This document shows, piece by piece, positions 351 to 15,682 of a stretch of 64,000 nucleotides of DNA. Position 1 is the stretch's first letter. Every line of letters starts with the position of its first letter. The translations under genes were made by a program, and so were the position numbers. The stretch lies in NCBI GenBank assembly GCA_904419525.1, contig CAJFRT010000007.1:69327-133326 (forward strand), in the 5' to 3' direction. Source of the DNA: Candidatus Gallimonas merdae (lineage in GTDB: Bacteria > Bacillota > Clostridia > Christensenellales > Borkfalkiaceae). The notes beneath the pieces were generated by a model. The model was not told the DNA's origin, searched no databases, and saw only the letters and a list, made by a program, of their open reading frames with translations.

Positions 351-3300
351 TTATTTCTTTTTTCTGACGGCTCTTCCGCCGGTCAGCAGGATCATTTTAA
401 CTGCATCCATGGAGAAGTCATGCGCTTCCACGACAAGCGGCTTATCGATGAATCCGCGGGCGAGTACTTTCAGGGAGTCAACGTTTTCAGAGATGAGTTT
501 GCGTTCCTTGATGAGTTCAAGTGTCACGACATCATGGGGCGCAAAGTTCTGTGAAAGCGTATCGATATTGATGATTCCCTTTTTTACGCGCTCTTTGCGG
601 ACAGGGACATTCTGCGGCGTTCGCTCTGTCCGCACATCCGCTTCGGGAATCTTTTCCGGGACCGCTTCCGTTTGCTCAGCCGGTTCGGAAACGGGTTCTT
701 CAGGGATCTCCTCCTCTTCTTCCAGGTACATCGCGGCGACCTCATCGGTCATAGCGCTCTGCGCTTCCCGCAGTGTGATCTTTTCCCGAATGAGGGTCGC
801 GATATCTGCCTTGACATATTCCGCATCTTCAGAGAGTTCCTTATTGGAGAAAACCCTGACAAGATCCTGTTCGATCAGCGCTTCCGTCGTCTCATAAGGA
901 AGGCGGAATTCATGGCTGACGACTTCTCCCTGCTCCAGACCGTTCTGTGCCGCGACCTGCGCAAACAGATATTTTGCATAGCGCAGCTTGCGGTCGGAAA
1001 TGACTTTGAGAAGCATGGGCGTCTTTTCGTACCGCTTGATCTCCGACATATCCAGCCCGTGGTACTTGGTGTCCTCATATGCCTTGGGATCCAGCGCGTA
1101 GGCGACGCAGAGCTTTCTGCCCTTGAACAGGACGGATGCAAGCGTCTTTCTTCCCGAATAGACGCGCACCTGCTTCCAGCTCTCCTTGGTCTTGACCTTG
1201 GGATAGGAGGCAAATTCGTCCATGAGCTGTCCGAATCTGTCCTGAATCTCTTCAGGCGCCTGAATGAGCTTCGCGCGGAAGCTGTAATTGTAGCGGACAA
1301 GGATTCTCCTTCCGTCAATGATCGTGATGCCGGATTCGATGCTCCCGACGTTCTCTGCTTCGCTCTCTTCTTCGGGTTCTGCCTCTTCGGGGAGTTCTTC
1401 TTCCTCCGCTTCGGCAACCGCAAGTTCTTCTTCGGGTTCCGCTTCTTCGGGGAGTTCTTCTTCCTCCGCTTCGGCAACCACAAGTTCTTCTTCGGGTTCC
1501 GGCTGAACTTCTTCTACGGGCGCTTCTTCCGTGACCGGAGGCACATCTTCCGCAACGGGCTCCGCTTCGGCGATCGGCTCTTCCTGCTTCTTTCCGGAGC
1601 GCTTTGCGAAGAGCACGATTTCCACAGCGGCAAGCGCCGCGACTGCGGCGGCAAGCAGGGCAACGCCTGCGATCTGCCAGGCCGTGATGGCGAGCAGGCC
1701 GAACAGAGCGGGAGCCGCAAAGCTTGCCGTTACAGTTCTTCCGCTTTGATGCGGTTCATCGGGCTGATCGCCGCCTCCATCGACAGCCCCCGCTTCCGAC
1801 AGCTCCCCGGAAGAGGTATCTTCTGTCGCAGGGATATCAGTCTCATCGACAGCCACCTCTCCTTCGGTCACTTCCCCCGCAGAGATATTTTCTGTGGCAG
1901 GCGTATCTTCTGCCGTTCCCTCAGAATGAGCATCTGTGCTGCTTTCGGGATCACCGTTTCCGTCGTCCGGTGTCTGCGGCCCTTCCGGAGAATCGGGAGG
2001 CGTTTCCTTAGATTTAGGCGTGCTTCCGCCCGAAAGGAAATAGGCTGCAAGAATGATCAGCTCCACGCCGAGCGCCGAAGCAAGGCCGATCATTGCCCAG
2101 ACGATGGGATCCAACCCGTCCTGAATAATGTTCCACTCAAGCGTCAGTTCGCCGGTTGTTCCGTCGCTCCAGGCATAGTTATCGGCATCGCGCAGGAAGA
2201 CCGTCACGCTGTATGCACCCTCATCGGTCGCCTGCAGGGAGATACTGTTGTCCGCATTCGGGACGAGGCCTGTTCCGACTCCCGCGCCGCGCACACCGAT
2301 GAGCGAAAGATCGATCGGAATGCGGATATTCTGCGCTTCACCCGTTTTTACGGTATCGACGGAGAACGGCGTGTCGTCATTGTCGACAGTCGGTTTATCA
2401 ATGAGGGCGCGGGCGATCGTGAACGCCTCGGAACTGCCTGTGTCGCTCAATACATAGTTTGTCGCATTGATACGCGCCCTGACCGTGTAGCTTCCTGCGG
2501 AGACAGGCGCTTCCGTCGAATTCCATGTCGTTCCGTTGTTTGCCGTGCCACTGTATACGAGCGTGACGTTCAGCGAATCTCCACCGGCAAGGCCGTCCGT
2601 GATGCGTACAGTTGCCGATTTTGCCGTACCGTCATAGGTCAGGTTATCGCCGAGCGTGATCTCCACAGTCAGTTCAGCAGGCGTGATCGTCAGCGTGCCG
2701 CTGCGGAATTCGATGGAATAGTTCTTGTTGTCCCAGTTTCCGGTGATGACATACGTCCCCGTATTCCACTCACCGCTCATGTCCGAGACGGTGAGCGTGA
2801 TACCAAGGTTGCTGTAACTTCCTGCGGTCTGCACCGTGTAAGCCGTCTGATCGAGGACGGGCATGCCCCCGCTGTACGCAAAGCTCTGATTTCCGATGAC
2901 GATCACGAGCGATGCGGAATTCATGACGAGAGATGTCTGCGTTCCGTTCAGAATATAATTGTCGTTTGCTTCACGGAAAGAAGCCGTTGCGGAGTAAGTT
3001 CCGACATCGCAGAACTGCTTGCCGTCGCCGATGGTGACAGTAAGAGCATGCGACATCTCGTCGACATCGACATAGTAGGCCGTGACCGTCTGTTCGCTTC
3101 CGTTGTAAGTGAACTGCGTCTGTTCCCAGACAACATCCACCGTGACGGGAAGCAGCCTGATCCGCACAGAGATCGCTTCCGGAGTTTTATAGTTGCCGCT
3201 GGTCGTGGAGAATGTGGCCGTGCGGGTCACAGTTCCGTCCGCGACATTGGTCACGCTTCCGGAGTACTCGACATGAAGATCGACGCCGTCAAGCCCGACG

Positions 3301-6300
3301 GACAGAGCAGAGATGACAGGTGCATGCGTCTTTCCGTCGTAAGACATGGCGTACACGCCGTCTTCGGACGTCCAGCCGGTCATGTCAAATGCCATATCGG
3401 CGTATGTGGCCCTTGCGATCTCGAATGCGACCGGTTCGGATTCCACACGTTCATAGTTGTTTGTCTGAGCGGCAACCGCAACGACGAAGTAACTGCCTGC
3501 ACGGGTGGGAATCGTAGCGTATTGCTGCGATTGTTCATACGACCAGATCCCATCATTGGAAGCACCGTAATAATAGTAGGTGATGCTTCCGCCGCCGGGG
3601 ACGGTCTGCGAGCCGCCGATGCTGTAAGTCGGTTCGTGTTCCGCCGTTCCGTTATACGTCCAGCCGTCGAGATCTGCTGTAAGCACAAATGTGGCGCGCA
3701 GGATATGGAATTCCTGTTCGGCGGTACCGCCGTAATAGTTGGCCGTTGTCTGGACGGAAACCGTCAGGCGATAGGTACCGGCATTTTCAGGCGCATCCGC
3801 ACTGTTCCAGGACGATCCGTCGTAGGCGAGTCCGGTGTAGAGATAGGTGACCGTCTGTCCGTCCTCTTCGTAGTAGCCGCTGACCTGAGGCTCCGCCTTT
3901 GCCTGTCCATACGTCCAGTCGCCGATCGTGACGGCAAAGGTATCGTCAACGCTCTTGCGGTCGATCAGGAACGACGTCTCTTCTGTCCTGAAGCTGAAAT
4001 AGTTGACGGTCTCAGCGATCACGGCGTACACCGAGTAAGAGCCTGCCTGGGTCGGGATCTCCTGCGTCAGGGCATAATCTTCCGAGGCGTTGGTCGTGCC
4101 TTTGTAATAATACGTTACAGCGCCGCTTCCCGGATTTTCTGTCAGAACAGGAGTCTTTTCCTCTTCTCCGTAGACCCAGTCTTCATTTGAGATCTCGCTT
4201 GTAAACGATGCACGGGCGATGTCAAAAGTCTGTTCATAATCGAAAGCGGTGTAGTTTTTATCACCGTGGAACATGACCACGACATGATAGTTGCCCGCAT
4301 TGGCCGGTGCCTCGGTTTCGGGTTCTTCCTGGGAACCGTACGGCGTTCCGCCGTTGTCCGCACCGTAATAGCCGATGGTGTAGAGCGAATCGTCCAGACC
4401 GCCGACAAGAACGGACAAACCTTCCCCGTATGTCGTTCCGGAAACGGATACAGTGACGCTTCCGTCCTCGCCGAAGATCGATTCGCCCTGTGCCTGCTCG
4501 ATCGTGAACTCGAAGTATGTCGGCACGCCGGAAGCACCCAGCCAGGCTTCGAGATAGTTCTCCGTTCCTTCGACATAGGCGGCCACGTAATATACACCCG
4601 CTTCGGACGGCACTGCATCCAGCCGGTTGTATGTGCCGTCTTCCAGAACAAAGTACGCATACTTTGCGTCCACCTGTCCGACGCCGCTGACCGTTACGCC
4701 GGACGGTTCATTGGCTGCTTCGCCGTAGGTCCAGTTTTCGATCGAGATCGTCCCGTTCAGGACCGGCGTCCCCTTCTCGATCTTCCAGACGATGTCGCGT
4801 CCTTCCGTGCCGCCGGCTTCATCGTTCCAGACATAGTTCGGATCGATGATCGTGACGACGCCCGCATAGGTGCCGACATTCGTTGCCGTTACGGAAAGGC
4901 TTCCGTCCTCGCCCGTCGTAAGCTGCAAGCCGGTGATCCAGGTGACGGTGCTGATGTAGTTTACGATCTTGTTGGTCTGCGCTTCGCCGTTATAATTTGT
5001 AGAACTCTGCTCGAACGTCGGGATATCGATTGCGCGCGGCGCGATCGTAAATTCGGCCGTTGCAGATGCCCCGCCGTAGTTTTCCGTGCGCAGAACGCTG
5101 ATCGTAACTTTGTACGAACCGGCGTTGACGGGCACGTCGGACGAGTCATATCCTCCACCGTCCGTGGACTGGAACCGATAGACGTACTGCCCTTCCGCCG
5201 TCACGCTGAACGCAATGAACAGACTGCTTTCCGAAGGGTTCTGCGCATATCCGATGATCTGATTGCTGTCAAGATCTGCCGTGTCGAGATATGTCCAGCC
5301 GTATACCCCTTCGCCGAGCGTGCGGTTGATCGAGATCGTCACGCTGTTTCTCTGTGCGTCGATCGAGAAGACAAATACAAACGTGATGTCTTCCGAATCT
5401 TTCCAGGTGTAGTTATCGGGATCCGCAAGCGTGATCGAAACGCTGTATTCGGAGGCCGTCGTTGCGGTGATGGTGGGATATCCCGTAACAGAATCGGTGC
5501 CATAGGTACCGCCGCTCGACACGATGCCGGTGAAGATTTCAGAACTGAAACCATTCATCCAGGCTTCCGAACGCATATTTGCAAGAATCGCCGTCTGCGG
5601 TTCTCCCGTAAAGAGCAGGGAGTTATCTTCGATGGGCTCGCCGTCCACGGTCCAGGCAAGATCGATCGCATATTTGTTGACATAGAACGCGCAGTTGAAT
5701 GTCTGATCGTTCCAGTCGTAGTGCTCGCCGTCCTCGGCATGGCCCGCGACGAAGAATTTGACATAATACCAGCCGGCGCCGTTTTCACGCGCGGTGACGG
5801 ACTGCACGAACGCTTCGTAAGCCTCATCGGCGCTTTCGTACAGCGAGGCGTCGAGAATGCGTTCGCCCTCCGTTTCGCCGTTGCCCAGATAGATCCCCTC
5901 CAGGCTGGCTTCGCCGAACCGGACCTGCTGCGTGGAGCGTTCGCCGCTGCTTGTTGTGCCGTATTCCAGTCCCGTCCAGCTGAAATCGGTCAGTTCGTTG
6001 GTGGCTGTTCCGATCTCCACCTCGAAGGCGAACTGCGTGCGGACATAGCATTCCGTGTCGCCCGAAGCAGCGACGATGTAGAAGTAATATGTGCCGCTCT
6101 CGGAGACGTGCATGACCTTGAACTGATCGGCCGGAATGCCGCTTTGGGTGTCGCCGGGCGTCTTGGTCACATAGAAGGTGACGGAAAGTCCGTTCTTCGA
6201 TGCAGCGGTCTCCTCGGAGAGCTGATAGGAAGCGAGCGCCTGATGCTGATTTCCGTCATAGATCGCGGGCTCGCCGGCGCCGTAACCGCTGTAAGTGATG

Positions 6301-9300
6301 TCCTCTTCCCCGAATGTGGCGGCATCCACCGTATAGACCCCGGCATTGGAGGAACCTTCGCCGTGATCGGTGTTGCCGCGGAAGGTGACGGCATAATTGT
6401 CATTCAGCGGCGTGCCGAATACGACATAGCTGCCCACGATCGTTGCGGTATCGATTCCGCCCTCCACTTCAAGGCGGACAACGGGATTGTCAAGCAGCAA
6501 TGTTTCCCCGTTGGGGCCTGCATCGGCGTCCGCGGCGGAAAGGCGCGTCCCCTCGGCAAGCTGCGCCGTGAGCGTCGTCATCTCTGTGCCGTAATCGGAA
6601 CGGACGTCACCGATCGTGACGATGATCTCGCGGCGGGAAACGGTGAACGTTCCGTAAGTTCCGTCTTTGCTGCCTGTGAAGGTGATGATATAGTTCTTGA
6701 GAAGTTCTGCATCTGCCGATGCCTCGGCAACAAGGTAGTAGGTCCCGACGGCCGTCTGCTCGGAGACAAGGCTGCCGTCCGGGGCGATCATCGCCGTGAC
6801 AATGATGCCGATATCATCGACAAATTCATGGCTTCCGCCGGCGTAGTTCCACCATTTCCCCTCCGCACTCTGCGCTGCGGGTGCGGTATCGCCGTAGGCC
6901 ATGCCGTCGTCCGACACCTCGATGTAGATCTGACGCTCGTTGATGACGAACTGTTCGGAATCGTCGCTTAAAACATAGTTTCCGAATTCGTTATCCACAT
7001 CGTCGAATTTTGCGTAGAACTCATAGGATCCGACCGTCTCAAATGCAGCGGGAGAACGTCCGTCGTCGATTGCAAGCGTGACGTCGGAATCATCGACGTT
7101 CCGATAAACGGGTTTGATGTCCGTCTTATGGTCTTCGCTGTCGTACGTATACTCCGTCTCGCCCCAGTCCACATCGACGGAAAGAGGCGTTACGGCAACG
7201 TAAACCGTGACATCGTCGGGGGCATGATAGTTGCCGCTGGCCGTCGTGAAAGTGATCGTGATTTCCTTGTAGTAATATTCAACGTCGTTTACCGTGATCG
7301 TCTGATCGGTGTCGCGGACATTGATCTTACCCGTTGTCCCGTCGGCAAATTTCGCTGTCGGACTGCTGTCGTCCGCACCGATGATATGCGTGCTCAGATA
7401 TTCGTTGGAGAAAACAGCCTTGTGCTCTTTGCCGTCGTAGGTGTAGACAAAGATGAACTGCTGACCGCCGGCGGAGAACTCGATCATGCGCCCGCCGTCC
7501 TCTGCCGACAGGAACTGCGTGAGATCGATCGCCGAATATTCTGCCTTGAAGATCTCAAAGCGGGTCGAGGCGGACGTGAGCTCATAGTTCTGGTTGTTAG
7601 CGCTGACCGTCACGCGATAGTAACCGACATCGGTCGGCGCCTTGTTGCTGTGATATCCTTCGGAAATGGGATTCCCGTCCTGATCGACGGCGCGGTACGA
7701 ATAGACAAAGTCGAAGTCAACGCCTTCTTCAATGTCCGAATTTCCGCTCTCATCGTAGATGGAGGCAACATAACCCTTGGGAGTGCCGTCGTACGTCCAA
7801 TAGCCGGAGCCTGACCCTTCGGGCGTCAGTTCGATCCGGACGCCGCGCGCAAGCACCTCGTATTGGCCCGCAGCGATTCCTTCATACGATTTGGAACCCG
7901 TAAACGTGATGTTATAGTTGACAGAAGTTCCATCCAGAAGCGATGCAACGATCACATAATCGTCTCCAGCAGGCGCCCGGAGCTGATCGTCGCTGTTTGC
8001 CGTATAGTCATAGAACGGATTTTCAGGAACTCCCCAGTAGGGACCGAGCACGGAGAGCGTGATCAGATCGTTCCACGCGCCGTCCTTGGCATAGATCTTT
8101 TCCTCGCTGGTGACTTCGGCGCTGACGGGGTTGAAGGGATTTCCGTAGGTCGAACCGACGTTTTCACCCTTGGTATCGTTGATATGAATGGTGATCTCGC
8201 GCCGTGCGACAGTCAGAACGCCCTCTTCAAGAGAGATATTGTAGTTGAGCGTGTCGAACACGACGCTGCCCGCGCCGAGCGTGATCGGATAACTCTCTGC
8301 GTCCATACCGATCTGATATGTCCCGGCCGCAACGGTGAGAAGAAGGTTCCCGCCTTCGTCGGCAAGGCCCATTTCGCGGAGAGATTCGCCGAACGGCCGT
8401 TCCTGCGTCCAGCTTCCGGCTCCGTACTGATAGGACAGCGTATAGTCCTTCTCCGTGTCGAAGTCATAACCGTACGTGATCGTACCGTCCGCCTTGATCG
8501 AGAGTTCGTATTGCTTGATCACGACCTGGAACGAATACTCCTCGGAATTCTGCGTGCTGCTTCCGTAGTCATTGTGATTGGGAGCGGCGATATAGAAGTA
8601 GACGGTATATGTGCCCGCGTCGGTGAGCGTCAGATCGGTCTCCCATTCGTCTTCTTCCGAAAGACGGAAATACCAGGTCGCCGTCTGATCGTTGCGCGTG
8701 GTCACGTGATAGCCGGTATTCAGGACCGCGTGCGCTTCGGAGTCATAGATGCCGTTATACGCCTCATAGACCGCCTCCTGCATATCGGCAGCCCGAATGG
8801 CATACGTGGAGGAACCCTCTCCCGTATAGACAAACTCTACGGTATAATTGGCGTTGTGTTTGGAGCCGCTGACCGTATAATTGCCGACAGCGGTATCGCG
8901 CTGCAGCGTCACGCTCGGCGTGAATGTGACGATATCGCGCACGCCGTCGTCGATCAGATCGGAAAGCCCGCCGGCGATCGCCTCCTCATAGACGCGGTCG
9001 ATGCCGATATTCTCGTCATAGTAGATGTTGTCGAGGTCCGGAACCGTGATCGTTACGTGACGGGGCGACACGACAAGTTCATCTGTGACGATTGTGATGC
9101 TGTAGTTGGTCAGCTCCTCCGTGTTGAGAACGGGAGAAATGGTATAGCTTGCACAAGCGCTTCCGGGAATATAATCTTCTGTTCGATAGCCGGTGACCTG
9201 CAGAAGCTGCTTTTCTTCATCGCTTGCGGCTTCCGCCCAGCCGGTGATCTCCGAAGAATACCTGTCCGTATCGATCGCGTCGCCGTAATGGAACACATCG

Positions 9301-12300
9301 TACGAATTCGTGACCGTGACGGTAAGTTCCTTTTGGGCGATCGAGAACTCTGTACTGCCGTTCTGCGTCAGGCGGTAGTTTGCCGTCTGCTCGCCCGTTC
9401 CGAGCCGGACCGTGACCGTCCATTCGCCCGCGTCCTTCGCGCAAAGGTCCGTGTCGTACGCAAATTCGCCGCCGCTCCACGTATAGGAGTAGGTATAGAC
9501 GAGCGTATCGCCGTCAAGGAGCCCTGCGGGATCTGTTCCGTTATCCTTGGAAGGCGTCACGGTGATCTGCACGGCCAGCGCATCGTAGATCTTGGTGTTG
9601 CCGTTGAGGCCGCTCGAAACCGCAAGGCTGACTTCACGCTGTTCGACGTTCAGCGTGGTCTCCGGAAGCGTAAAGGTATAGTTGGGCAGATTGGCACCGA
9701 GGCTTGTTACCGTGACGGTATATTCCCCGACATTTCCCGCCGTGCGGCCGGGAACGTAATCCGTTCCGTCCCTTCTGGTCGCAAAGGTCGGATCGATTTT
9801 GAGAGATTCTTCATCTTCGGTTCCGGCAAAATTCCCGATCGTGAGAGAATACTCCGGCGCGGCTTCGCCGTAAATGGTCATATAGCCGTCCTGCGCGAAT
9901 TTCACCGTGAGCTGTCTCTTCTGGATGGTGAATTCCTTGGAGTAGCCGTTGCTGTCTGCCAGCTCGTAGTTTGCGGTGTCCTCCCCTTCACCGAGCGTGA
10001 CAACGACTTTCCATTTGCCCGCATCCTTGGCAAACGCCTGACTCTGAACGCCCACCGGGGTGCCGCCCTTTGTATAGGTAAACACATAGACGAGGGTGTC
10101 TTTGTCAAGTTTTCCGGAAGACGAAGGCGTGACGGTCACTGCGGTGCCGTCATAGACCTTTCCGTCCGGTTCGTCCGTGTCGATCGCAATTTCATCAATG
10201 GAAATCTTTTTGGGATCGACTGTCAGCGTGCCCTTGTCGCTGTATATAAACGTATAGTTGTCGGCTTCAAGTCCTTTCGGAAGCACTTGATACGTTCCGA
10301 CGGGGCTGCCGGAAGCATAGTTGTCCTCCGGTCCGCTGTATGTGAACGCCAATCCGTCCTTTTTGACAACGCCTTCGCCGTCCGTTCCGACCCAGCCGCC
10401 CTCGTAGACCAGCTTATATTCGGGCGCATCGTCGCCATAGGAAACGGTCGTGCTCTTCACCGAAACGGTGAGCGTTTTCTGGTCGATATGGAACGCGGCG
10501 GAAAGCGGTTCAAGCGTATAGTTCCCGTTCGAGATCGAGACGGTCACGGTGTAGTCGCCGGCGTTGATCGGGGCCTGATCGCCGGTTGCGCCGTAATTGT
10601 ACGACACGCCGAGTGCGGAGAACGCATCCGGTTCGCCCACGCCGCCGGGGCTCTTCAGAGTAACGCCGTCGTCCACGAGAGCTTCGCCGACGGAGCCGTA
10701 TGTGAACGTATAGCCGCTCCCGTCCTGATAGCCGCTTCCGATCAGTTCCAGCGTCAGGGGAGCCGGATCGATCGTAAATTCGATCTCGAACGTGGCAGTT
10801 TCGTAGTCAGACTGATTGGACGTTTCGATTCTGAGATGCGCGGTATACGTGCCCGCATACTTCGGCATTTCCGTGCTTGCGCTGTCGACATCATCAAACG
10901 TCCAGCCGCCGCAGTTGTCCGGGTCAGCGGGTGAGCCGTAGTAGTAGATCGTGGGCGTCATGTTCGCCAGATTGGACGTATCATAGACGGGCGCCTTTAC
11001 AGATGTTCCGTATTCCCATTCCGTGATGTTGCCTTCAAAATGGAAGTTGACGTCCGGAAGCGTCGTCTTTGTGATCTGATACCACATCCAGATGACGTCA
11101 TCGTCGGTCAGGCCCTCTTTCTGATCGGAAGCCGATGCAGGATGATCAAAGGCATTACGGTTGATATCATTTTCCGCAAGCGTGATGCTCCACCGGTAGT
11201 CACGGGTATTTTTGAGCGTCACGATCACCCAGTAGGTGTTGTAAGTCGTGCTCGAATCATCCTCATATTCATATCCGATGATGCCGCTCATGCTAACAAC
11301 ATACAGATTTTTCGGAACATTCAGCGTGATTTCAGGTGTCCAGACGCTGTTGTTGAACTCTTTTTTACGCTGGAACGAGATCACTTCGCCCGTGACAAGC
11401 GTAAATTTTTCGATCTTAAACGAGCAGGAGATATCCGCAGCGCCGCTCAATGTATAGTTGTGCGCGTCCCCGCCTTCCAGTCCGGAAACGCTGACAGTGT
11501 ATGACCCGGCATGGCGCGCTTCTTCAACCTCTGCCGTACTTTCACCGGTCGTCTCGGTGAATTTATATTGGAACGAGACTTCGTCGCCGCCAATGACGTT
11601 GCTGCCGGAAACGACAGGTTGCTTTGCCCGGTTGTCAAAGACAAGGTCTTCCTCTCCCGACCAATCATTGACCGAGAGAACAAGTGGTTTGATTTCAACC
11701 GTGCAGATTTCCCGCGTCTCGCCTGCCGCCGTTCCGTCCGCCCACGCAAAGTTGACGGGATCGGAAAGTTTCAGCGAGATCGTGTAAGTGTCGGCGTTTT
11801 CCGCGGAGAATTTACCCGTTGCATTGTCTGTCTCATAGGTATATACAGATGTAACGGCAAATTCGAGCGGACGCTTCCCCTCGACGCCCGACGTCCAGCC
11901 CGTAAGCGTAACGGTCTGCAATTCGCTGCTGTACGTCAGAGTTGCGTCCTCCGATTCGGGAAGAGCGATCTTGAGCGGAAGGACGTTCCAGGTCAGGGAA
12001 TGCGTTTCGCGGCCGCCGCCTGTCCACTGATAGTTATCCCCAGGCTTCAGGGTAACGGTATAGTCTCCGTCCGTTTTGACGGAATTTGCTGTCTTTTCGC
12101 CCGAAAGGGTATAACCGGGGTTCTCCTCCCCGTCCGGCGTGTCCGTGATTGCGTCGGGCGTTGCGGTGATCGTCTCGTCGTAGTTATAGGTGTTGCCGGC
12201 TTCCAGTCCACCGACAAACAGCAGATCTGTCGGTTTGTCGATCGAAAAACGGGCGATCGTCCAGGGGAGCTGATAGTTTTCGGTCGATCCCGTCGAGTCG

Positions 12301-15300
12301 TCGATCCAGCAATAGTTGCCGTCAAGGCGGAATTCGACCGTATACTCGTCGGCGTTCTGCCCCTCGTAGCCGCTTACAAAGGAGTATGCCTTGTTCAGCC
12401 AATCCTGCGACGCCGCATCGAGCTCTACGGTCTGCACCTTGGCATTGTATTCATAGGATTTGTCTGCAAGCACGGGATAAGGCACGCCCTTGCGCGTGAT
12501 CTGCCACGTGAGTTCATAGGGGTCGTTTTCACCGGGCTCTGCCGCTTCGCTGCCCCAGACATAGTTGTGGCTGAGTTCGATCTTAATGGTGTAGTCGTTG
12601 ACTGCATTGGCAGAGAGCGCGCCCGTCTGAGGATCGACGGTCGCCGTGTCCGAAGAAGCCGTCATCACGGTTCCGACTGTGTCCTCAGAAACATAGCCGG
12701 AAAGCTGTCCTGCCGTCGGGCCGTCGGGATTGAACACCACGGACGGTGCGGTGGGCTTTTCGATGGCCTTGCGCATGATCGTCCAGCCGACACGGGCAGC
12801 GGCGGTTTCCCCTGCATCATTGTCCAGCCAGACATAGTTGGTTTCGCCCTTGGTGTTTTCTTTCAGCGTGAATGTGACGAAATAGTTGCCGGCATCGGTT
12901 GCAGAAAGGTCGTCGGATTTTTCATAGGCATCGTCTGCGTATGTCTCCTCATCGAACAAAACTTCCTGCACATTTTCATTGTACGTGTAGGGCGCCCCGC
13001 TGACCTCGGGAACGGAGATTTTGAAAGGCGTGATCTTCCAGGTGACCTCCGTCGTATCCACATCGCTGCCGTCCTCTCCCCAGCAGTAGTTGAGGTTCGT
13101 GAGCGTCACCGTCAGCTTATAGGGGCCGGCGTCCTCCGCGGTCAGCTTGCCGCCCTCGATCTGCAGGCCGCTCTCCTCGGTGGAAGCGGACATGATGTCC
13201 GCGTCAAAGCCATCGAGCGTGACGGAGCTGCTTCCGAGCGGAACATACTCCGCGTTCGGAGCCGTCGGAACGGTCAGACCCTTGCGCAGGACCGTCCAGG
13301 AATACGTATAGCCCGCGTCCGGCTCCGCCCATACAAGATTCGTCGCGTCGTTGAGCGAAAGGCTGATCGTATATGTGCCGGCATTCGTGACAGAGACGCC
13401 GCCCGAAAGCACGGATCCGTTCTGATTGATTTCGATTTTGATCGCGTTCGCAAAGACGCCGCCTTGCAGAAGATCGGATTCGACGACGTCCTGTCCCTCG
13501 GCAATCTGATTGAAGCTGTCAAACGAGCGCGACTGGCCTTCTTCGGTAAAGACGCTTTCAGATTCGTTGAACGTCGGTTTTACGATTTTGAGCGGGACGA
13601 TCTCGAACTCGTCGGAGACGGCGGCATCATCCTTGTCCTTCCACTTGGCATTGTTGCGTTCGCTTTCCTTGATGGTGAACGTGATCGTATAGGTATTTAC
13701 GTCTTTCTGCGTGTAGTCCCCGGTAATATCGCAGTACCGCTGATAGGTCTCCCAGGCTTCTGAAGTCTCTTCAAGGAAGTTTTCGGCAGACTGCACGACC
13801 CCGTTGTAGACGGCAGTCTTGAACGACGGGAGTTTGAGTTCGCGCTGACCGATGCGGAAGTAAATTCTTCCGCTTTCGCCGGCGTTGAAGTTATCCGACT
13901 CCGGAGCGGTGACGTACAGCGTATAATCGCCGCGCGCGGTCGGCATATCGGAGGCATCGGACACGCCGTTGTCCCCGTTATAGTGGTAGACGATCTGCGC
14001 GCCGCCGTAGTTGTTGGAGACGACGACCGCAGGCGTGGAATCGCCGTGGTTCCAGGTATACGGATGAGAGGAAGAGCCGTTGTTGGTGTCCGGGTCGATC
14101 AGGGATTCGCCCTCCAAAGCAACCGCAAGCTCGTTCAGATTCGCCTTTGCGACAGTAAATGTCACATCGACACTGCGGTTATCCCCGCTTGAACTTCCCT
14201 GCCATATATAGGCATCATTCGTCAAAGTAATTGTAACGGTATAATCTCCGGCGTCAGTCACGGTTACATATGTCTTTGTGAATGTATCTAAAATCTGCTC
14301 CCCTTTCTTCAATCCCGTAATTTCCATATAAGCGGCATTGAATGTATCCTGAAGAGGTTCTGCTTGCTGCTCCTTTCCGACTGCCAACCCTTCCGAAACA
14401 GTGTAGTCATACACAATATCTGAACGGAATCCGGGGCTGGCGACTTCGATTCTGCTGACACGAACCCTTCGCATGGGGCTTTGAACAGTTGTCCCGTTCT
14501 CCGTGTATGAAACCCCGATTGTACCCCATGAGGCATCATATACAAAGGAGGTGTACGACTGCCCGTCGGAGCCGTTTACGTTTCCGGAAGCATCGCCGTA
14601 TCTGACATTGAAATAACGGCTATCAGCCAAAGACAATGTGACACTCGGATTTCCCATCGGATTGATGTCGGTCGGATAGTTGATTGTAATATTAAATTTT
14701 CCGGCATTCCCGTTTTCTTCCAGCGTGGAATATGCGTCGAAAATTTCATTACTGCTGATCGAAATCGAAGTGGGAGTAAGCGCATGAATTCCTTCGACTA
14801 AAACGGTGCCTTCCGCCGTAGCGGTGGTGCCGTTCGCCTCAACCGAATAACGGACGGTCATCTCCTTGGAGAAGGTAGCGATTGAGCCATCGTAAGTGGT
14901 CGTTTTGTCCGGTACAAACGTGCCGGTCATCATAATGCTTTCCGAAGTCAAAGGGATTTCTTCGCCGGCATAATTGACACCTACGAAGGACGTGATATAG
15001 CTTCCCATCTGATATGTATCGGAATTAGAGTAAATTGTCTCGTCGGGCTCAAAAACTATATCTTTGATCTCTTTGATGCGATTGACCTGTACCGTGAGGT
15101 TTACAGATGTTTCATACTCGCCATATGTAACGGTAAAGCGCTGCGACTGGGAAAGAGACCCCGATGCCACAGAAATATCGCCGGCGACCGTGAAACCATC
15201 CGTCCCGATTTCGTCATATTCAAGCGCATCTCCAACCTGCTGTCCCTCTGCGTCTACAAGCGTAACAAGGAGCACATCGCCAAGCTGCGCATGGGTCATG

Positions 15301-15476
15301 CCTGTATATACATCTTTCCCCGATTGGAGCTGTGCGCGAATTCCCACAGCTTCCCCTGCGGCGCGCGCATCGGCGCGATCCAGCGTAAGAAAGCCGAAAA
15401 GCGCAGCAAAAAATGCCGTAAACATCAACGCAACGGCTGTAAATGTTCTGATCAATCTGTGTTTCTGTTCTCTCAT
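351..15476 (-). CDS. Giant MBG/YDG-repeat surface protein with a cytoplasmic uL15-like tail
   Basis: This 5041-residue protein is probably a surface adhesin or matrix protein. The start chosen is MREQKHRL (15476), preceded by GGAGG at 8 nt and followed by a signal peptide with a hydrophobic core around residues 12-30. A 37-residue upstream extension lacks a ribosome site. About 4400 residues are repeated beta-sandwich modules of two kinds. One has the NYxW(x)DG...LxWxI pattern; the other is MBG/YDG-like (YGD...Y...LTV, with YDG and AGxYxVxV). One hydrophobic segment (DNA about 2027-2115) and a hydrophobic hairpin (about 1585-1740) follow. The tail carries a duplicated 20-residue acidic segment, a conserved domain around RYNYSFRAKLIQ, a second acidic stretch, and a 77-residue end resembling the C-terminal half of ribosomal protein uL15. 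If the topology is right, that tail is cytoplasmic. There is no LPXTG motif. The gene is monocistronic with its own promoter and terminator. Function is inferred only. Confidence 0.85.
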   Translation of the reverse strand: MREQKHRLIRTFTAVALMFTAFFAALFGFLTLDRADARAAGEAVGIRAQLQSGKDVYTGMTHAQLGDVLLVTLVDAEGQQVGDALEYDEIGTDGFTVAGDISVASGSLSQSQRFTVTYGEYETSVNLTVQVNRIKEIKDIVFEPDETIYSNSDTYQMGSYITSFVGVNYAGEEIPLTSESIMMTGTFVPDKTTTYDGSIATFSKEMTVRYSVEANGTTATAEGTVLVEGIHALTPTSISISSNEIFDAYSTLEENGNAGKFNITINYPTDINPMGNPSVTLSLADSRYFNVRYGDASGNVNGSDGQSYTSFVYDASWGTIGVSYTENGTTVQSPMRRVRVSRIEVASPGFRSDIVYDYTVSEGLAVGKEQQAEPLQDTFNAAYMEITGLKKGEQILDTFTKTYVTVTDAGDYTVTITLTNDAYIWQGSSSGDNRSVDVTFTVAKANLNELAVALEGESLIDPDTNNGSSSHPYTWNHGDSTPAVVVSNNYGGAQIVYHYNGDNGVSDASDMPTARGDYTLYVTAPESDNFNAGESGRIYFRIGQRELKLPSFKTAVYNGVVQSAENFLEETSEAWETYQRYCDITGDYTQKDVNTYTITFTIKESERNNAKWKDKDDAAVSDEFEIVPLKIVKPTFNESESVFTEEGQSRSFDSFNQIAEGQDVVESDLLQGGVFANAIKIEINQNGSVLSGGVSVTNAGTYTISLSLNDATNLVWAEPDAGYTYSWTVLRKGLTVPTAPNAEYVPLGSSSVTLDGFDADIMSASTEESGLQIEGGKLTAEDAGPYKLTVTLTNLNYCWGEDGSDVDTTEVTWKITPFKISVPEVSGAPYTYNENVQEVLFDEETYADDAYEKSDDLSATDAGNYFVTFTLKENTKGETNYVWLDNDAGETAAARVGWTIMRKAIEKPTAPSVVFNPDGPTAGQLSGYVSEDTVGTVMTASSDTATVDPQTGALSANAVNDYTIKIELSHNYVWGSEAAEPGENDPYELTWQITRKGVPYPVLADKSYEYNAKVQTVELDAASQDWLNKAYSFVSGYEGQNADEYTVEFRLDGNYCWIDDSTGSTENYQLPWTIARFSIDKPTDLLFVGGLEAGNTYNYDETITATPDAITDTPDGEENPGYTLSGEKTANSVKTDGDYTVTLKPGDNYQWTGGGRETHSLTWNVLPLKIALPESEDATLTYSSELQTVTLTGWTSGVEGKRPLEFAVTSVYTYETDNATGKFSAENADTYTISLKLSDPVNFAWADGTAAGETREICTVEIKPLVLSVNDWSGEEDLVFDNRAKQPVVSGSNVIGGDEVSFQYKFTETTGESTAEVEEARHAGSYTVSVSGLEGGDAHNYTLSGAADISCSFKIEKFTLVTGEVISFQRKKEFNNSVWTPEITLNVPKNLYVVSMSGIIGYEYEDDSSTTYNTYWVIVTLKNTRDYRWSITLAENDINRNAFDHPASASDQKEGLTDDDVIWMWYQITKTTLPDVNFHFEGNITEWEYGTSVKAPVYDTSNLANMTPTIYYYGSPADPDNCGGWTFDDVDSASTEMPKYAGTYTAHLRIETSNQSDYETATFEIEFTIDPAPLTLELIGSGYQDGSGYTFTYGSVGEALVDDGVTLKSPGGVGEPDAFSALGVSYNYGATGDQAPINAGDYTVTVSISNGNYTLEPLSAAFHIDQKTLTVSVKSTTVSYGDDAPEYKLVYEGGWVGTDGEGVVKKDGLAFTYSGPEDNYASGSPVGTYQVLPKGLEADNYTFIYSDKGTLTVDPKKISIDEIAIDTDEPDGKVYDGTAVTVTPSSSGKLDKDTLVYVFTYTKGGTPVGVQSQAFAKDAGKWKVVVTLGEGEDTANYELADSNGYSKEFTIQKRQLTVKFAQDGYMTIYGEAAPEYSLTIGNFAGTEDEESLKIDPTFATRRDGTDYVPGRTAGNVGEYTVTVTSLGANLPNYTFTLPETTLNVEQREVSLAVSSGLNGNTKIYDALAVQITVTPSKDNGTDPAGLLDGDTLVYTYSYTWSGGEFAYDTDLCAKDAGEWTVTVRLGTGEQTANYRLTQNGSTEFSIAQKELTVTVTNSYDVFHYGDAIDTDRYSSEITGWAEAASDEEKQLLQVTGYRTEDYIPGSACASYTISPVLNTEELTNYSITIVTDELVVSPRHVTITVPDLDNIYYDENIGIDRVYEEAIAGGLSDLIDDGVRDIVTFTPSVTLQRDTAVGNYTVSGSKHNANYTVEFVYTGEGSSTYAIRAADMQEAVYEAYNGIYDSEAHAVLNTGYHVTTRNDQTATWYFRLSEEDEWETDLTLTDAGTYTVYFYIAAPNHNDYGSSTQNSEEYSFQVVIKQYELSIKADGTITYGYDFDTEKDYTLSYQYGAGSWTQERPFGESLREMGLADEGGNLLLTVAAGTYQIGMDAESYPITLGAGSVVFDTLNYNISLEEGVLTVARREITIHINDTKGENVGSTYGNPFNPVSAEVTSEEKIYAKDGAWNDLITLSVLGPYWGVPENPFYDYTANSDDQLRAPAGDDYVIVASLLDGTSVNYNITFTGSKSYEGIAAGQYEVLARGVRIELTPEGSGSGYWTYDGTPKGYVASIYDESGNSDIEEGVDFDFVYSYRAVDQDGNPISEGYHSNKAPTDVGYYRVTVSANNQNYELTSASTRFEIFKAEYSAIDLTQFLSAEDGGRMIEFSAGGQQFIFVYTYDGKEHKAVFSNEYLSTHIIGADDSSPTAKFADGTTGKINVRDTDQTITVNDVEYYYKEITITFTTASGNYHAPDDVTVYVAVTPLSVDVDWGETEYTYDSEDHKTDIKPVYRNVDDSDVTLAIDDGRSPAAFETVGSYEFYAKFDDVDNEFGNYVLSDDSEQFVINERQIYIEVSDDGMAYGDTAPAAQSAEGKWWNYAGGSHEFVDDIGIIVTAMIAPDGSLVSEQTAVGTYYLVAEASADAELLKNYIITFTGSKDGTYGTFTVSRREIIVTIGDVRSDYGTEMTTLTAQLAEGTRLSAADADAGPNGETLLLDNPVVRLEVEGGIDTATIVGSYVVFGTPLNDNYAVTFRGNTDHGEGSSNAGVYTVDAATFGEEDITYSGYGAGEPAIYDGNQHQALASYQLSEETAASKNGLSVTFYVTKTPGDTQSGIPADQFKVMHVSESGTYYFYIVAASGDTECYVRTQFAFEVEIGTATNELTDFSWTGLEYGTTSSGERSTQQVRFGEASLEGIYLGNGETEGERILDASLYESADEAYEAFVQSVTARENGAGWYYVKFFVAGHAEDGEHYDWNDQTFNCAFYVNKYAIDLAWTVDGEPIEDNSLLFTGEPQTAILANMRSEAWMNGFSSEIFTGIVSSGGTYGTDSVTGYPTITATTASEYSVSITLADPDNYTWKDSEDITFVFVFSIDAQRNSVTISINRTLGEGVYGWTYLDTADLDSNQIIGYAQNPSESSLFIAFSVTAEGQYVYRFQSTDGGGYDSSDVPVNAGSYKVTISVLRTENYGGASATAEFTIAPRAIDIPTFEQSSTNYNGEAQTNKIVNYISTVTWITGLQLTTGEDGSLSVTATNVGTYAGVVTIIDPNYVWNDEAGGTEGRDIVWKIEKGTPVLNGTISIENWTYGEAANEPSGVTVSGVGQVDAKYAYFVLEDGTYNRLDAVPSEAGVYYVAAYVEGTENYLEAWLGASGVPTYFEFTIEQAQGESIFGEDGSVTVSVSGTTYGEGLSVLVGGLDDSLYTIGYYGADNGGTPYGSQEEPETEAPANAGNYHVVVMFHGDKNYTAFDYEQTFDIARASFTSEISNEDWVYGEEEKTPVLTENPGSGAVTYYYKGTTNASEDYALTQEIPTQAGSYSVYAVIAETVNYFSFRTEETSFLIDRKSVDDTFAVTIGDWTYGQAKAEPQVSGYYEEDGQTVTYLYTGLAYDGSSWNSADAPENAGTYRLTVSVQTTANYYGGTAEQEFHILRATFVLTADLDGWTYNGTAEHEPTYSIGGSQTVPGGGSITYYYYGASNDGIWSYEQSQQYATIPTRAGSYFVVAVAAQTNNYERVESEPVAFEIARATYADMAFDMTGWTSEDGVYAMSYDGKTHAPVISALSVGLDGVDLHVEYSGSVTNVADGTVTRTATFSTTSGNYKTPEAISVRIRLLPVTVDVVWEQTQFTYNGSEQTVTAYYVDVDEMSHALTVTIGDGKQFCDVGTYSATASFREANDNYILNGTQTSLVMNSASLVIVIGNQSFAYSGGMPVLDQTAYTVQTAGSYSNLGITLTVSDMSGEWNTGTYVITGNWDNKNYSIEFRSGTLTITPAELTVEITLGDNLTYDGTAKSATVRITDGLAGGDSLNVTLVYSGTANNGTTWNSTEAPVSAGSYTVRARINATNYVLSDTGSSEAFTIARALIDKPTVDNDDTPFSVDTVKTGEAQNIRIPIDLSLIGVRGAGVGTGLVPNADNSISLQATDEGAYSVTVFLRDADNYAWSDGTTGELTLEWNIIQDGLDPIVWAMIGLASALGVELIILAAYFLSGGSTPKSKETPPDSPEGPQTPDDGNGDPESSTDAHSEGTAEDTPATENISAGEVTEGEVAVDETDIPATEDTSSGELSEAGAVDGGGDQPDEPHQSGRTVTASFAAPALFGLLAITAWQIAGVALLAAAVAALAAVEIVLFAKRSGKKQEEPIAEAEPVAEDVPPVTEEAPVEEVQPEPEEELVVAEAEEEELPEEAEPEEELAVAEAEEEELPEEAEPEEESEAENVGSIESGITIIDGRRILVRYNYSFRAKLIQAPEEIQDRFGQLMDEFASYPKVKTKESWKQVRVYSGRKTLASVLFKGRKLCVAYALDPKAYEDTKYHGLDMSEIKRYEKTPMLLKVISDRKLRYAKYLFAQVAAQNGLEQGEVVSHEFRLPYETTEALIEQDLVRVFSNKELSEDAEYVKADIATLIREKITLREAQSAMTDEVAAMYLEEEEEIPEEPVSEPAEQTEAVPEKIPEADVRTERTPQNVPVRKERVKKGIINIDTLSQNFAPHDVVTLELIKERKLISENVDSLKVLARGFIDKPLVVEAHDFSMDAVKMILLTGGRAVRKKK
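354..584 (-). other. uL15-like domain at the C-terminus of the giant protein
   Basis: Residues about 4965-5041, from KKGIINIDTLSQNF to the end. The pattern INIDTL...VTLELIKERKLI...LKVLARGFIDKPLVVEAHDFS...GG matches the C-terminal half of bacterial ribosomal protein L15 (INLxDL...VTPELLKExGLI...VKVLGxGELxKxLTVxAHxFSxxAxxAIExAGG). The resemblance is my own alignment by eye. Confidence 0.65.
930..1335 (-). other. Conserved tail domain of unknown function (RYNYSFRAKLIQ type)
   Basis: About 135 residues between the two acidic linkers, containing RYNYSFRAKLIQ, SWKQVRVYSGRKTLA, GRKLCVAYALDPKAYEDTKY and KVISDRKLRYAKYL. I recall similar segments in membrane proteins of gut Firmicutes but know no assigned function. 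It is rich in Lys and Arg, in contrast to its acidic flanks. Confidence 0.5.
1366..1500 (-). repeat. 60-bp tandem repeat in the acidic tail of the giant gene
   Basis: Bases 1381-1440 and 1441-1500 match at 58 of 60 positions, and a further partial unit lies at about 1366-1380. The period is exactly 20 codons and encodes an acidic segment (EEEELPEEAEPEEE). Copy number could change by slippage without breaking the frame. Confidence 0.9.
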
Positions 15477-15682
15477 CCCTCTGCCCTCCAACCGGTAGTT
15501 TTCAAATATATCATATGACCCGCAGTACACATCAAGCACTGCGGTTGAATCCGATCGTGTGTTATCCGCGTGCATTTTTCCACACATTTTGTCGGAATAA
15601 TGCCCGTGAAAGATTATAACGAAATTAAGTTATCAACACTTCATATCCGCGATAACACTCAATTTATATTGAATTTACTTCT
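15477..15682 (-). other. Leader (5' UTR) of the giant gene
   Basis: About 200 nt separate the predicted transcription start (about 15676) from the chosen ATG. The leader contains a 7-bp stem (CCGCAGT 15520-15526 with ACTGCGG 15538-15544) and repeated TTATC/GATAA segments at 15559-15570 and 15628-15655 that could pair. I recognise no known riboswitch. Short open frames here lack ribosome sites and were not called. Confidence 0.45.

Follow-up and report, generated by a model that had tools for sequence, protein, structure and literature searches.

A giant surface-type protein encoded in the window, the 64,000-nucleotide stretch of DNA analysed here, ends in 77 residues that show homology to the C-terminal half of bacterial ribosomal protein uL15. 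These residues close a predicted cytoplasmic module that is found both fused to giants of this type and encoded by separate genes adjacent to genes for surface-type proteins, and the two arrangements tie the module to surface fibres. It appears that a fragment of a universal ribosomal protein was duplicated, relocated to the membrane and retained in very large proteins of gut Clostridia. In those parts of the literature that were accessible to the search, neither the architecture nor the function of such a module was found to be described, and the proposed module for anchoring or assembly of surface proteins, with its repurposed ribosomal-protein domain, appears to be new with respect to these sources. 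It provides a handle on how giant adhesins devoid of a sortase motif might be anchored, assembled or sensed from inside the cell.

The giant is specified by an open frame of 5078 amino acids on the minus strand (354..15587), or by 5041 amino acids if translation starts at Met38 (15476), which is preceded by the Shine-Dalgarno-like sequence GGAGG. Its N-terminus is hydrophobic and signal-like, and profile searches with Pfam detected MBG_2 (E 2e-9) and MBG_3 (E 3.1e-9) in residues 1-4900. Repeats of these types, a signal-like N-terminus and a C-terminal span are also features of MBG-repeat fibrillar surface proteins and giant adhesins; a surface location of the protein is predicted from its signal-like N-terminus and its span. 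Unlike these adhesins, the window giant runs on into a hairpin, a YjbR-like and a uL15-like domain, and no LPxTG-type motif was found by pattern scan. All parts of this C-terminal region are on the minus strand. It starts with TM1 (residues 4495-4518; 2034..2105), which contains an internal Glu and is, by its flank charge, likely a stop-transfer span. The linker behind it (residues 4519-4622; 1722..2033) ends just before the point at which relatives encoded by separate genes and stand-alone relatives begin. Next are a likely membrane hairpin with a basic C-flank (residues 4623-4661; 1605..1721), whose sequence aligns with the N-terminal part of separately encoded partners, and a basic stop leading into an acidic low-complexity linker (residues 4662-4763; 1299..1604; net charge -35 over residues 4662-4755). 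A candidate YjbR/YdhG-like alpha/beta domain, designated mid domain (residues 4764-4914; 846..1298), a segment of the type EAxxxMTDExA that is conserved in the alignment (residues 4923-4953; 729..821) and the uL15-like tail (residues 5002-5078; 354..584) complete the protein. The mid domain differs from YjbR, YdhG (DUF1801, frataxin-like) and DUF5655 proteins in its low identity to them of about 10%, in having no Pfam family of its own, in its frequent tandem arrangement and in being linked to the membrane. In a structure model of mid domain and tail built with 50 sequences, the motif segment is predicted to be helical with low confidence (model helix 169-199, block pLDDT about 47-56). Within the acidic linker, positions 1365-1496 specify a tandem repeat of two almost identical units, each about 21 residues long and of the type EELVVAEAEEEELPEEAEPE. 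This stretch seems to be prone to duplication, since a close copy in the databases (P0121) contains two mid domains.

That the 77-residue C-terminus resembles the C-terminal half of L15 had been proposed in the original prediction and was borne out by the PF00828 profile, which matched at 369-572 with 41.6 bits (curated cut-off, 21.5), and by the predicted fold. The model for full-length L15, TIGR01071, matched over its positions 67-142 only and with 32.8 bits, below its cut-off of 77.95. Two tails showed a mean identity of about 33% to 25 ribosomal uL15s over up to 79 columns. For broader comparisons, 23 tails were picked by hand and L15 sequences were taken by a motif rule, which yielded 25 from 31 loci, at least one of the 31 (L111) not being an L15 locus. 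Twelve positions reach 90% conservation among tails and L15s alike; a further twelve do so in the tails only, some of these being nearly as conserved in L15. Conserved departures from uL15 are LARG for LGxG and AVKMI for AxxKI. In a tree of the 79 columns, which leave many forks open and in which P0112, a broken sequence, forms a long branch, tails and ribosomal L15s were divided by a branch of length 1.9 with support of 100/100. The tree is consistent with one origin of the tails and, judged from these alignments, the tail separated from L15 long ago and has its own set of conserved positions. The basic N-terminal arm of uL15 binds rRNA; the N-terminal and C-terminal halves of the 25 L15s have mean net charges of +13.9 and +1.4, respectively. 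This basic half is absent from the tail, and an acidic linker stands before it instead. The tail itself is mildly basic, with a mean of +5.7 including flanks in the 23 tails and +4 in the window giant. Its gene also differs from rplO in context, as it is not located in a ribosomal operon and specifies a membrane-linked giant; the L15 gene of the source genome (C6 in L001) lies between ribosomal genes and a secY-like ORF, the neighbours being named by eye. Databases hold many members of the tail family and label such carriers as ribosomal proteins. The original prediction had mentioned uL15-like labels on odd clostridial proteins, and two listed records (P0017 and P0266; Firmicutes, Bacilli) are indeed named uL15 family ribosomal protein. 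They belong to the same family as the tail, but the rest of the protein and the gene context do not fit the name.

Among 52 distinct giants, mean pairwise identity was 65% for the tail and 58% for the last mid domain, compared to 23-29% for the linkers and 25% for a 400-residue slice of the ectodomain. Tail identity exceeded ectodomain identity in 1323 of 1326 giant pairs, and the tail is the best conserved of the parts compared. It is present in 118 of 120 giants among the matches listed. The tail is not essential to the module, since it is missing in nine of the 20 linked partner proteins described below and in the fused giants P0224 and P0225; a Pumilibacter strain record (L080) likewise has a tail-less module. 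These two form a group with L043 and L050, the latter a Candidatus Coproplasma record, in which the fused module has two mid domains and no uL15 tail.

The membrane topology was deduced from 43 distinct giants. Exactly two hydrophobic segments were obtained for 28 of them; for the other 15, with three to six segments, the last two were taken, by which a few giants such as P0180 are mis-assigned. The 15 residues flanking TM1 contain on average 0.23 K+R on the outer and 3.07 on the inner side. For the second segment the means are 1.02 before and 3.74 after, and for the span of 44 distinct stand-alone proteins 0.2 and 4.11. A second segment of 37-45 residues was measured in 29 giants, while the remaining 14, which include mis-assigned ones, have 15-28 residues, and the alignment revealed a central PxGQ-like turn in many sequences. 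Because of these lengths, the basic C-flanks and the central turn, the segment likely forms a hairpin that leaves the tail in the cytoplasm. The order of one span, a linker and a likely hairpin before the tail, as well as the cytoplasmic position of the tail, had been expected from hydropathy; both agree with the predictions made here, the latter by the flank charges and by mid-domain paralogues which by eye have neither span nor signal peptide. Of the 43 giants, 37 carry an acidic residue in TM1 as well as in the second segment, the latter judged by its C-terminal half; three further giants were unclear and three had one acidic residue. In the stand-alone proteins, no acidic residue was detected in the C-terminal half of the span (0 of 44). 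This difference suggests that TM1 and the second segment may pack together. Of the separate pairs, 19 of the 20 (all except L078) were inspected by eye, and only three of them (L005, L006 and L009) show acidic residues in both spans, which does not favour such packing.

The best 80 of 178 matching stretches, representing 79 loci, were used to compare fused and separate genes. ORFs were called mechanically as the longest ones, by which the family gene was missed in some loci; in L061 and L082, a spoIVA-like ORF is present but no family ORF was called. In total, 71 ORFs with a mid domain were obtained, 16 of which have at least 443 preceding residues in frame and were read as fused surface-type proteins (L004, L008, L010-L013, L017, L018, L025, L029, L039, L041, L043, L045, L050 and L060; sequences were read for L043, L045, L050 and L060). 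Neighbours were counted for the 53 mid ORFs whose start was complete and which had an ORF upstream; 17 mid ORFs cut at the locus start and that of L050, which lacks an upstream ORF, were excluded. A mid ORF was considered linked if the upstream ORF is on the same strand, ends in a hydrophobic span and is separated by -30 to +60 bp, the limits of distance and hydropathy having been fixed after a first look at the neighbours. By this rule, 20 of 53 mid ORFs are linked, with distances to the upstream ORF ranging from -20 to +41 bp, versus seven of 262 control neighbour pairs from the same loci. If the upstream ORF must have at least 1000 amino acids, 17 mid ORFs and no controls remain. Due to near-copies (L006/L009, L069/L071, L077/L078), the 20 loci are not 20 independent events. 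All four upstream proteins scanned with Pfam have surface-type repeats, MBG in L006, L065 and L073, and Listeria-Bacteroides repeats with a coiled coil in L026. No upstream gene fitting the rule was found for 33 mid ORFs; three of these are themselves fused (L011, L045 and L060) and four follow a spoIVA-like ORF (L053, L056, L058 and L066).

An alignment of 11 fused, seven separate and four stand-alone proteins revealed homology between the second hydrophobic segment of the giants and the segment with which the separate proteins begin. From this homology and the adjacency of the genes, the window giant is best explained by two neighbouring genes that became fused, with the joint probably within or beside linker residues 4519-4622; we infer fusion rather than fission as the direction. 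Two tail-less mid-domain partners (L073 7394-11161 and L062 653-2140) have a common C-terminal domain of the type RRRGRKVYWFDPDGKTWEKGEIALY instead and show Ig-like stretches after the span by eye, for which no Pfam match was obtained. In L072 (9554-11962), the tail is specified by a separate ORF of 116 amino acids, 108 bp past an ORF with two mid domains, perhaps a split gene.

Regarding function, we favour, at about an even chance, a module that acts as a protein-binding cytoplasmic anchor or assembly platform for the extracellular fibre and not as an RNA binder. The giant would be exported until TM1 halts the process, and the hairpin would pack against TM1, each contributing a conserved membrane acidic residue. 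The YjbR-like and uL15-like domains would extend on acidic linkers into the cytoplasm, where they would hold a predicted partner. By hairpin docking and binding of a cytoplasmic partner, one type of platform could serve many different ectodomains; in the lineage of the source genome, ectodomain gene and module gene would have become fused. The conservation, the linked separate genes, the alignment of the second segment, the paired acidic residues and the missing basic half of uL15 favour this proposal. The mild basicity of the tail speaks against it, as it could serve RNA binding, and so do the tail-less partners, the 33 mid ORFs that have no upstream gene of the required kind, the 14 giants with a second segment short for a hairpin and the few separate pairs with acidic residues in both spans. 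The original prediction had indeed considered binding of RNA, ribosomes or a partner. Its uL15 assignment and cytoplasmic placement hold, but a role in RNA or ribosome binding is weakened by the missing basic half and by the LARG and AVKMI differences. The YjbR-like domain before the tail, the 481-residue paralogue described below and the occurrence of the module as a separate gene go beyond the original prediction. A tail that binds ribosomes, rRNA or a ribosome-associated factor, holding translation or export of the giant at the membrane, would agree with the uL15 fold, the identity to ribosomal uL15s, the predicted location and the strong conservation, and a substrate of 5000 residues should gain from such coupling. 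We regard it as unlikely, given also the low score with the full-length L15 model and the tail-less linked partners; moreover, the tail is translated last and should not be able to aid export of its own chain. A membrane-bound ribosome receptor on giants and partner proteins, catching ribosomes or a factor recognising uL15, appears more doubtful still; if it existed, the next 5000-residue chains would be made directly at the membrane export site.

Transmembrane signalling, in which the ectodomain would sense contact and the YjbR-like and uL15-like domains would relay it to soluble proteins, perhaps spore-related ones or the soluble YjbR-like paralogues encoded in the source genome, is also judged improbable. 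Two span-less mid paralogues in the source genome, the spoIVA neighbourhood of a third paralogue and of four related loci, and the presence of two mid domains plus tail in 71 of 120 giants among the matches listed would fit. However, a Pfam search of the last 649 residues yielded neither a kinase, phosphatase or cyclase nor a DNA-binding domain, and the spoIVA loci are related and may share synteny only. It is very unlikely that the second segment is a single span with mid and uL15-like domains outside. The 14 giants with segments of at most 28 residues would allow this, as would a stand-alone protein in L033 with a weak match after its span (E 1.1e-4, 22.7 bits, cut-off 27) to the Listeria-Bacteroides repeat, usually an extracellular domain. 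The longer segments of the other 29 giants, the basic residues following the segment in giants and stand-alone proteins and the two paralogues devoid of span and signal peptide argue for the inside. That the tail is a neutral relic of an accidental fusion with an L15 copy, retained without function, is hardly credible; this reading is contradicted by the conservation and near-constant presence of the tail and by its old split from L15 with own conserved positions.

Named relatives in the 79 loci are Candidatus Borkfalkia, Coproplasma, Gallimonas, Protoclostridium and Pumilibacter and two Anaeroplasma-type records. Of 121 genomes sampled from the order of the source genome, 43 contain the mid domain, and in 291 genomes of the class all matches listed that reach the mid part fall into this order. 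Among 29 genomes of the phylum, only the source genome has more than one PF00828 match. Its three genes are operon L15, the window gene and a gene for a 481-residue membrane protein with the same order of mid domain and tail. The latter (L116 8692-11914, outside the window) directly follows spoIVA (PF09547, E 2.5e-100), as the mid ORFs of L053, L056, L058 and L066 follow spoIVA-like ORFs, an adjacency which may be mere synteny of related loci. Mid domains are encoded at four loci of the source genome, the additional ones specifying a coiled-coil-like protein of 515 residues and one of 281 residues whose N-terminus is Cys-rich, both without span or signal peptide by eye. The gene of the 281-residue type (L118 9285-10127) adjoins a ClpC-like ORF by eye, and L033 5614-6309 also specifies a mid-domain protein with a Cys-rich N-terminus and, by eye, no span.
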